NCBI RefSeq assembly: GCF_003428695.1
Contig: NZ_QURH01000316.1
Location: forward strand, 1-64,000
Direction: 5' to 3'
Source of the DNA: Actinomadura logoneensis
GTDB lineage: Bacteria > Actinomycetota > Actinomycetes > Streptosporangiales > Streptosporangiaceae
DNA length: 64,000 nt
Positions 1 through 23,512 of this stretch are shown piece by piece. Positions within the stretch are counted from its first letter, which is position 1. The number at the start of each line of letters is the position of its first letter. The notes beneath the pieces are model-generated. The model was not told the DNA's origin. It did no database searches and saw only the letters and a list, made by a program, of their open reading frames with translations. Made by a program: the position numbers and the translations under genes.

Positions 1-753
1 CCGGTCGGCGGCGGCGAGCGCGGCGAGCACCGGGCGCGGCCCGCACGCGATGACCGCCACGTCCCGGCCCCGCCGCAGCCACTGGGCCCGGCCGATCTCG
101 AACGCGCCGCCGCCGACGTCCGGGGTGGCCTTGCGGCCGAGCCGGACGTACACGGGCCCGGGCAGCGCCGCGCTCTGCCGGACGGCCGCCTCGGCCTGGT
201 CGGCGTCGGCCGGGACGACCACGGTGAGACCGGGCAGGGCCCGCATGACGGCGAGGTCCTCCAGCGCGTGGTGGGTCGGCCCGAGGTGCCCGGCGGCCAG
301 CCCGCCGTGCGTCGCGACGATCCGGACGGGCAGCGCGTTGTAGACGATGTCGATCTTGATGGCCTCCAGGGCGCGCGTCGCGGCGAAGGTGGCCATGGTC
401 GTGACGAACGGGACCTTGCCGCTCGCCGCGAGCCCCGCCGCCGTGCCCATCAGGCTCTGCTCGGCGATGCCGAGGTTGAGGTAGCGGCCGGGGACGGCGG
501 CGAAGGCGTCCGGGTCGAACAGCCCGGTGTCGCTGTCCAGGCAGTACAGCCGCTCGTCGGCGAGCATCAGCTCCGGGAGCACGGCGCTGTACGCCTCGCG
601 CGCCGATCGCGGCCTCGGCTCGGCGCGTGGAGAAGCGCCCTGGCGCGAGGCGACCGGTGCGCCCGTTCCGGTGCCGGGTCGCGGCGCGTCCGCACGTTCT
701 TTCCCGCCCTCCTCTTGGACCGGGGTGGCGGGACGGCTCTCCTGCGCGGTCAT
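1..753 (-). CDS. Transketolase C-terminal subunit (partial, runs off left edge)
   Basis: Second half of a split, thiamine-diphosphate (TPP) transketolase, which moves a two-carbon ketol unit between sugar-like or keto substrates. 251 residues are visible and the reading frame is still open at base 1. The pyrimidine-binding domain is recognisable by GRYLNLGIAEQS (residues 89-100); the Glu of AEQ (E98) is the family's TPP-activating glutamate. ATHGGLAAGHLGPTHHALED follows as in transketolase and DXS relatives. The ATG at 753 overlaps the stop of the N-half gene in an ATGA, so the two halves are translationally coupled. Residues 1 to about 50 are an unusual Pro/Ala/Gly/Glu/Arg-rich stretch before the domain begins (REAYSAVLPELM). 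Split transketolases occur in secondary metabolism; the substrate here is unknown. Confidence 0.88.
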   Translation of the reverse strand, partial: MTAQESRPATPVQEEGGKERADAPRPGTGTGAPVASRQGASPRAEPRPRSAREAYSAVLPELMLADERLYCLDSDTGLFDPDAFAAVPGRYLNLGIAEQSLMGTAAGLAASGKVPFVTTMATFAATRALEAIKIDIVYNALPVRIVATHGGLAAGHLGPTHHALEDLAVMRALPGLTVVVPADADQAEAAVRQSAALPGPVYVRLGRKATPDVGGGAFEIGRAQWLRRGRDVAVIACGPRPVLAALAAADR

Positions 754-22596: not shown

Positions 22597-22629
22597 CCGC
22601 TCGGAAAACCCGTTGGGTTCTCCGAGCGG
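22597..22629 (+). terminator. Hairpin terminator after the VOC gene
   Basis: CCGCTCGGA (22597-22605) pairs with TCCGAGCGG (22621-22629), and inside it AACCC pairs with GGGTT around a GTT loop; 14 bp with one mismatch. Confidence 0.7.
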
Positions 22630-22694
22630 GTTGCCGTAGATTGCCCGCGGCCATCGCAGTCAGAACAGAGGACAGACCCGCGTGACCCCGCCTG

Positions 22695-22831
22695 CTCTTT
22701 AGACCTGACACCTTCTCCGCTCACCTGTAACCGGCGTCACCGCCGGTCCTGCCGGGCTGCCTTCTTCACGCGCGCCCGGTCGTTCAGCGTTCGAGGCCGC
22801 GCGTAATCGGCCTCGTGTCAGGTCTAGAGAG
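22695..22831 (+). ncRNA. Structured 137-bp inverted-repeat element before DUF1062 (RNA leader or MITE-like)
   Basis: The outer arms CTCTTTAGACCTGACAC (22695-22711) and GTGTCAGGTCTAGAGAG (22815-22831) pair over 17 bp with one mismatch. Between them are three smaller hairpins: ACCGGCG/CGCCGGT (22730-22747), CCGGGC/GCCCGG (22752-22779) and CGAGGCC/GGCCTCG (22792-22815, its last base shared with the outer arm). This gives a cloverleaf-like outline. The right arm ends 3 bp before the DUF1062 start codon and contains the only purine-rich site (GAGAG), so folding would hide the ribosome site. A small nonautonomous transposon (MITE) is the other reading; no clear target duplication was seen. Confidence 0.5.
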
Positions 22832-22834
22832 CTC

Positions 22835-23512
22835 ATGTCCTCACAACCTCATATCGTGCTGCCCTGGATCGTCCGCCGGACCAGACTGCCCCTGCTGTCG
22901 CTGCGGTGTGCGCACTGCCGGACCGGGTCGGCCACCACCGGCGACGGCAGGTTCCGCGTCAACGCCAATGGCAAGCTGCTGGACGTGTGGCTGCTGGTCC
23001 GCTGTGTCGCCTGCGACCGGACCGCCAAGCTCACCGTCCACGAACGCATGCCGGTCAGGTCCATCGATCCGGACGACCTCCACGGCTACCGCGTCAACGA
23101 TCCGGAGCTGGTCGCGGCCAGACTGCTGGATCCGCGCCTCGCCCACCGCAACCGCTTCACCCTCGACTGGACGGGCGCCTGGCGGCTGGACGTCCGGTCG
23201 GCCTGGACGGACGAGCCGTGGCCGGTCCAGGTGGACGTCCGCTTCGAGGACCCGGTACCGGTGCGCCCGGACCGCCTCATCGCGGACGGGCTCGGCCTCA
23301 GCCGGAACGAGGTGCTGCGCCGGACCAAGAGCGAGACCACGCTCAGCCGTCCGACGAGCACGGACTTCACCTTCACCGTGATGCCCGACCCCCGTCTCTC
23401 CCTCGGCCGGCCCGGCCCGGCCGCGGTGGGGCGGCCGGTTCCGGACAGGTCCGGTGAAGTTGATCTCCGTAAGATCATCCGCGACTCACACCCCTCCACA
23501 GGACGGACCTGA
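22835..23512 (+). CDS. DUF1062-family protein
   Basis: 225 aa. It has a zinc-ribbon-like start (CAHCRTGSATTG ... VRCVACDRTAKLTVHER) followed by NRFTLDWTGAWRLDV and the tail DLRKIIRDS, the arrangement of DUF1062 proteins. Function unknown. Its stop overlaps the ATG of the secreted beta-helix gene (TGATG), so the pair is probably co-translated. Confidence 0.82.
   Translation: MSSQPHIVLPWIVRRTRLPLLSLRCAHCRTGSATTGDGRFRVNANGKLLDVWLLVRCVACDRTAKLTVHERMPVRSIDPDDLHGYRVNDPELVAARLLDPRLAHRNRFTLDWTGAWRLDVRSAWTDEPWPVQVDVRFEDPVPVRPDRLIADGLGLSRNEVLRRTKSETTLSRPTSTDFTFTVMPDPRLSLGRPGPAAVGRPVPDRSGEVDLRKIIRDSHPSTGRT

Follow-up and report, generated by a model that had tools for sequence, protein, structure and literature searches.

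The conserved leader of an actinobacterial DUF1062 gene is probably a uORF translation attenuator under WblC-type control

In the attenuators of the cat and cml genes, a masked Shine-Dalgarno sequence is freed by a leader peptide that has been stalled by the drug. The leader of ermC is described in similar terms, with a drug-stalled leader peptide releasing a masked Shine-Dalgarno sequence (PMC10219788). With toiL-topAI of Escherichia coli, a short upstream open reading frame (uORF) pairs with the Shine-Dalgarno sequence of the next gene, and antibiotic-stalled ribosomes on the uORF are reported to unmask the topAI site (PMC12121999). Within the actinobacteria, the leaders of the WblC/WhiB7 regulon, including those of wblC, are5sc and tiaA, belong to the response to ribosome-targeting antibiotics and contain a uORF within a long 5' untranslated region; the parts of the two sources drawn on here give terminator/anti-terminator models for them, and for tiaA a transcriptional reporter that was constitutive and a translational one that is discussed (PMC12421871, PMC7157823).

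The locus described here lies in the window, which is the whole 64,000-nucleotide stretch of DNA that was analysed, and appears to share features with each of these systems. As with toiL-topAI, a short uORF would pair with the Shine-Dalgarno sequence of the following gene, but the stem here closes a multi-hairpin junction, the uORF is mostly six or eight codons long, the promoter is of the WblC type and the downstream gene encodes a DUF1062 protein. The likeness to erm and cat/cml would lie in the release of a masked site, whereas both the peptide and the gene are different, and DUF1062 is no known resistance gene. The regulon leaders of WblC/WhiB7 have uORF peptides such as MLV and MVGDDDISG (PMC12421871, PMC7157823) in place of MTPPAL, and unlike the models put forward for them, a masked Shine-Dalgarno sequence would point to control of translation. 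The element is best read as a device of a familiar kind that serves a little-studied gene, and we consider it probable that it is the 5' leader of the DUF1062 mRNA and attenuates translation through its uORF, with WblC-type control of transcription. The uORF, its conservation at the codon level, the outer stem P1 with its position and the promoter motif were all computed here (Table 1). Full-text searches covering the main texts of openly accessible papers listed no description of the leader and no mention of MTPPAL.

Table 1. Coordinates of the DUF1062 leader and its gene in the window
Feature	Position	Strand	Remarks
Candidate WblC/WhiB7-type promoter	22604-22642	+	GAAAAC (22604-22609), 3 nt, TTGGGT, 18 nt, TAGATT
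-35-like element TTGGGT	22613-22618	+	One mismatch to the WblC consensus
-10 element TAGATT	22637-22642	+	Consensus TANNNT
uORF Shine-Dalgarno sequence CAGAGGACA	22666-22674	+	Conserved in alignments; GTG follows after 7 nt
uORF, peptide MTPPAL	22682-22702	+	GTG ACC CCG CCT GCT CTT TAG; conserved reading frame
Outer stem P1, 5' arm	22694-22711	+	Includes the last two uORF codons, Leu and stop; from the fold
4-bp stem	22718-22721/22786-22789	+	Groups the hairpins 22730-22747 and 22751-22780; from the fold
Hairpins 1 and 2	22730-22747, 22751-22780	+	From the fold
Third hairpin, GAGGCCG/CGGCCTC	22793-22814	+	99.3% of cells paired
Outer stem P1, 3' arm	22815-22832	+	Carries the DUF1062 Shine-Dalgarno sequence AGAGAG (22826-22831)
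DUF1062 gene (PF06353)	22835-23512	+	225 aa; Pfam 6.6e-36; two C-x2-C pairs

The original prediction had described a cloverleaf-like element in which a 17-bp outer stem encloses three hairpins and carries, on its 3' arm, the purine-rich stretch before the start codon. The outer stem exists, although it comprises 18 bp including one G-U pair, and the three hairpins are found within it. The purine tract forms the end of the 3' arm, 3 nt 5' of the DUF1062 ATG. The predicted fold of 22685-22850 has an energy of -76.4 kcal/mol; 200 dinucleotide-shuffled sequences give -49.9 +/- 3.4 (z -7.7), and none of them reaches the native value. The coordinates given for the element were correct, and the description lacked the 4-bp stem; the functional unit, however, starts some 90 nt further upstream, with the promoter box at 22604 and the uORF, and the conserved block in the alignment extends to about 22600. 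At its other end the first DUF1062 codons (22835-22900) display strong conservation at the DNA level across the genus, so the leader function may extend into the coding region. The idea of an RNA that masks the ribosome site is supported, whilst the mini-ORF, its Shine-Dalgarno sequence and the promoter motif had been overlooked; with these in view, an attenuator that senses ribosomes replaces a riboswitch-like RNA as the explanation.

Further leaders were retrieved through the DUF1062 protein. For the uORF counts, 131 protein-retrieved loci were used (80 loci, L152-L231, together with 51 from L075-L130, L143, L144 and L146), which reduce to 116 distinct coding sequences, namely the 80 of L152-L231 and 36 others. 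Left out beforehand were L082, L108 and L109, where a leader could not be seen, L129, which has a GTA at the uORF start and a short DUF1062 match, the DUF1062 fragments in G111, G115 and G128, and the genus loci L002-L042, which had been retrieved by way of the leader itself. The genera represented in L152-L231 include Microbispora, Nonomuraea, Streptosporangium, Micromonospora, Dactylosporangium, Nocardiopsis, Amycolatopsis and Trebonia, and two Streptomyces loci are also present.

The uORF pattern, defined as an NTG, nine nucleotides, GCN and a subsequent stop after a Shine-Dalgarno sequence, is found in 112 of the 116 distinct loci. This pattern fixes the NTG and Ala5 and leaves codons 2-4 free, and within these three codons the changes inferred on a coding-sequence tree number 2, 3 and 17 at the first, second and third positions, respectively. 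The bias towards third positions (17/22, p = 3.1e-5 against one third) indicates that the changes are mostly synonymous and that conservation acts at the codon level. Among the 112 uORFs the start codon is GTG in 91, ATG in 19 and TTG in 2, with five inferred start-codon change events; the stop is TAG in 71, TGA in 40 and TAA in one, and the length is six codons in 76 and eight in 36. The stop falls inside the 5' arm of P1, at TAG 22700 in the window and at TGA 22706 in read-on variants. The four loci outside the pattern comprise L175 and L226, which keep MPAL*, L144, where the in-frame loss of a single Pro codon leaves MTPAF*, and the ambiguous L094. Ala5 is kept, although it is demanded by the search pattern; Pro-Ala is nevertheless also found in three of these four loci.

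In the mechanism proposed here, transcription would begin near 22650 from the WblC/WhiB7-type promoter. In the resting state, P1 would join the last part of the uORF to the DUF1062 Shine-Dalgarno sequence and the uORF Shine-Dalgarno sequence could pair with the DUF1062 start region, such that little DUF1062 is translated. When MTPPAL* is read rapidly, the ribosome would terminate within the 5' arm and leave, allowing P1 to re-form. If a ribosome instead stalled on this frame, most probably with Leu6 in the P site and Ala5 in the penultimate position, it would cover about 22682-22712 and hence the whole of the 5' arm, leaving the 3' arm and AGAGAG free and DUF1062 to be translated. We infer that the uORF is translated, that ribosomes stall on it, that this releases the start site, what the inducer would be and that DUF1062 protects translation. 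The likely trigger would be a drug that blocks peptide-bond formation where Ala or Thr is penultimate, as with the phenicols. Arrest by chloramphenicol and linezolid is reported to be best with a penultimate Ala and less so with Ser or Thr (PMC8987054). Ala5, and Thr3 in the MYTx* leader described below, would fit stalls of the phenicol type by analogy, a comparison that spans two leader types and a predicted stall site.

A serious possibility is that the uORF attenuator responds to another signal, such as pausing at Pro-Pro or loss of EF-P, a shortage of prolyl- or alanyl-tRNA, or ribosome inhibitors in general. Pro-Pro occupies codons 3-4 in 107 of the 112 uORFs, and WblC is reported to respond to several kinds of translation inhibitor (PMC7157823). 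Against this, Pro-Pro has been lost in several loci that retain Pro-Ala (MNTPAxSL*, MTQPAL*, MTTPAL*, MTPAF* and MPAL*), which makes Pro-Pro pausing alone an unlikely signal, and MYTx* has no Pro at all.

That the element is a cis-acting RNA hiding the DUF1062 ribosome site, as originally suggested, is supported by its conserved position, by conserved pairing and by a modest amount of compensatory change. Across the 80 sequences of L152-L231, drawn from many actinobacterial genera, pairing is conserved in 95.7% of cells, so that the structure is no product of chance. Changes on both sides of a pair affect 9 of 41 pairs and 23 cells, where shuffles give 6.0 and slid controls no more than 14. 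As the shuffles take no account of how the sequences are related, the compensatory change is supportive and not decisive. One pair of the first hairpin has changed from A-U to G-C in 11 of the 80 sequences, and within the genus 3 of 37 pairs vary on both sides (39 sequences). P1 is mostly invariant, with one outer pair broken in 33 of the 80 sequences. Minimum-energy folds contain P1 with at least six pairs in 112/112 MTPPA-type leaders and 39/39 Streptomyces-type leaders, and in 112/112 folds the uORF region forms at least six pairs with the DUF1062 Shine-Dalgarno region. The uORF Shine-Dalgarno sequence can in addition pair with the first DUF1062 codons at 22836-22842 (GAGGACA/UGUCCUC), and at least five pairs between the former and the DUF1062 start region are found in 106/112 minimum-energy folds. 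This pairing would couple the two start sites, and it would lock the uORF too unless the latter is read before the 3' part has been made.

Masking was assessed using partition-function folds with a 31-nt ribosome block, where Leu6 in the P site corresponds to coverage of 22682-22712. In the window, the probability of AGAGA being unpaired rises from 0.001 when the leader is free to 0.61 with the ribosome-sized block on the uORF. Over 113 leaders, the corresponding median for the Shine-Dalgarno sequence goes from 0.067 to 0.647, and remains at 0.067 when the same block is placed on the hairpins as a control; release above 0.5 is observed in 70/113 leaders with the uORF block and in 3/113 with the control block. 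The site is clearly masked in the free state, with an unpaired probability below 0.2, in only 63/113 leaders. These values refer to the Shine-Dalgarno sequence defined as the purine tract adjoining the ATG, and when it is defined instead as the best duplex with the anti-Shine-Dalgarno sequence, the rise is just from 0.015 to 0.244. In the occluded state of the window, a second helix (CACCUG/CAGGU plus GCUC/GAGC) partly re-masks the site; judged by eye, this feature is not general, and it was left out of the counts. In ten loci of Micromonospora and Plantactinospora (L157, L159, L178, L179, L186, L193, L198, L204, L222 and L223) the 3' arm with its Shine-Dalgarno sequence, TCAGGTCTAGAGA with variations, is tandemly duplicated before the ATG, and two masked sites would thus compete for one 5' arm.

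WblC-activated promoters of Streptomyces coelicolor are described by the motif GAAAWY-3-TKGMNN-16..19-TANNNT, and in most of them transcription begins 7-8 bp beyond the -10 element (PMC7157823); in the window the start is predicted at about 22649-22650. The window promoter itself fails the strict motif by one position of the -35 element. In the 120 nt that precede the uORF, 69 of the 116 loci have the strict motif, the other 47 being without it, as do 30 of the 39 Streptomyces-type leaders, whilst in the remaining flanks, taken on both strands, it occurs neither in the 580,636 nt of the 116 loci nor in the 241,574 nt of the Streptomyces type. The leaders as a group carry the WblC/WhiB7 promoter motif, and the window taken alone has it in a form with one -35 mismatch. 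With a relaxed motif, the window promoter is the sole match in the 64-kb window, and there are nine matches in the genome compared to one for the reversed control. Downstream of seven of the other eight relaxed matches, the frames scanned encode an ABC ATPase (C541/L272, cut by the contig end), an ABC-2 permease (C705/L273), a DUF6243 protein (C957/L276), a GNAT acetyltransferase (C965/L277), an ECF sigma factor (C950/L275, about 0.47 kb away), a Methyltransf_19 protein and one product that no Pfam family matches. A WblC-type regulon might well include some of these. The promoter box of the window, inspected by eye, also lies inside an inverted repeat at 22599-22630 (CGCTCGGAAAACCC...TTCTCCGAGCG), which may serve as the terminator for the glyoxalase-like gene further upstream.

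A second type of leader precedes DUF1062 in genomes that are assigned to Streptomyces because the L132 protein has matches of up to 93% in Streptomyces replicons (26 of the 57 plasmid records with a match). It is found at loci within L131-L141, L147, L149, L232-L260 and L281, with L142, where the leader is absent, kept out of the set. In 39 of 42 such DUF1062 loci there is a uORF of the form TTG TAY ACC NNN TGA (MYTx*), the exceptions (L134, L233 and L239) being a variant without it. The purine tract upstream is AAGGAC in most, and the fourth codon is variable, specifying V, L, K, T or A. The sequence and hairpins are unlike those of the window but the plan is alike: GUACACC can pair with GGUGUAC, in which GGUG is likely to be the Shine-Dalgarno sequence of a GTG start. 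Under the ribosome block, the unpaired probability of the site increases only from 0.007 to 0.082 and exceeds 0.5 in 1/39 leaders, and so the simple block model, as computed, does not explain the Streptomyces type. The entire leader, with MYTL* and a GAAAAC box, is present in Streptomyces sp. NBC_00826 (L281), and Streptomyces NBC_00316 (L280) has kept only its 3' end.

The DUF1062 protein family has a homologue consensus of about 186 aa. An AlphaFold model of residues 1-188, built with a 48-sequence alignment, gave a pLDDT of 93 and a pTM of 0.78 and was used in place of a 16-sequence model that was too poor (pLDDT 64). Comparison of this model with known structures produced nothing clear, with a best Foldseek E value of 0.46 and a best VIA Z score of 4.1. 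An S4 RNA-binding domain, which had been a first impression from the sequence, found no support, as the structure matches are weak and S4 is absent from the 24 Pfam families matched by 48 DUF1062 members at E values up to 10. The mentions of DUF1062 returned by a full-text name search of the literature stand in table rows alone, in the text so retrieved.

It could be argued that DUF1062, or another protein, binds the leader and represses its own translation, with the uORF having a secondary role. The loop and stem sequences are conserved beyond the needs of pairing, and the two C-x2-C pairs of DUF1062, together with weak structural rows (Z of at most 4.1) that include ribosomal zinc-ribbon proteins and IF3, would be in keeping with such a role, though nothing is concluded from these rows. 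The fold of DUF1062 is nonetheless without a clear match, the uORF is conserved at the codon level, and the hairpins are replaced in the short leaders (L078-L081 and L119-L126), which keep the uORF and P1, and differ again in the Streptomyces type; this explanation is consequently considered unlikely. Less likely still is a small-molecule riboswitch, with the junction as aptamer and P1 as the expression platform. A compact conserved junction and a helix such as P1 that could switch would suit a riboswitch, but the junction is missing in the short leaders that retain the uORF and P1, a riboswitch would need no translated uORF, and a covariance search of the window returned no Rfam family above the gathering score, only sub-threshold rows.

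The distribution of the element links it to DUF1062. In the genus, apparently Actinomadura, a near-full-length copy is found in 39 of 65 genomes at 41 places, of which the 40 outside the window are 76-89% identical to the window element, and in a manual comparison of the lists a PF06353 match was found just downstream on the same contig in 39/39 of these genomes. In G020 both the leader and the DUF1062 gene are truncated. DUF1062 was matched in 47/65 genomes of the genus, 44/120 of the family and 73/199 of the Streptomyces-type genus. Eight genomes of the genus have DUF1062 without a DNA-level match to the leader, and in seven of these a shorter or altered leader keeps the uORF and stem (L075-L081), with no leader seen upstream of DUF1062 at L082. 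Across 120 genomes of the family there are 40 places with the uORF/stem signature. By manual comparison of the lists, 37 of them lie just upstream of a PF06353 match; of the rest, two come before a diverged or contig-cut DUF1062 frame and one is a broken relic. Conversely, the family genomes contain 47 PF06353 places, 37 with the signature; the other ten consist of four variant uORFs (L088, L097, L115 and L128), the ambiguous L094, two without a leader (L108 and L109) and three fragments. DUF1062 genes without the leader are thus found at L082, L108, L109 and L142. In the genomes examined the leader is, from its sequence and position, real, conserved and dedicated to DUF1062. Second or relic copies (L086, L087, L269, L084, L085 and L270) are also seen, as leaders before truncated or diverged DUF1062 genes and as half or broken leaders, as if the leader and the gene decay together.

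The other option in the original prediction, a MITE or another mobile element that has landed in the leader, had the long arms resembling inverted repeats in its favour, but can be set aside with near certainty as the element is single-copy in its own 8.09-Mb genome, the copies of relatives lie beside DUF1062 and the two second copies in the genus (L040 and L042) precede truncated DUF1062 paralogues. Among the matches listed from plasmid and phage collections, related DNA amounted to pieces of at most 37% of the query with E values of 0.1 or worse.

The uORF attenuator suggests that DUF1062 is part of the bacterium's response to ribosome-blocking antibiotics. More tentatively, DUF1062 could be a previously undescribed actinobacterial factor in the response to peptidyl-transferase inhibitors, held under a double lock made up of a WblC/WhiB7 promoter and a uORF sensing phenicol-type stalls with Ala or Thr in the penultimate position, with the dissimilar MTPPAL* leaders of the Streptosporangiales and related groups and MYTx* leaders of Streptomyces having arisen or diverged around the same logic. 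If the leader is what it appears to be, the few natural stall sensors would be joined by a leader peptide of six codons in which an Ala is conserved. The leader would moreover reveal when DUF1062 is needed, namely when ribosomes are blocked, and would make the function of the protein directly testable.
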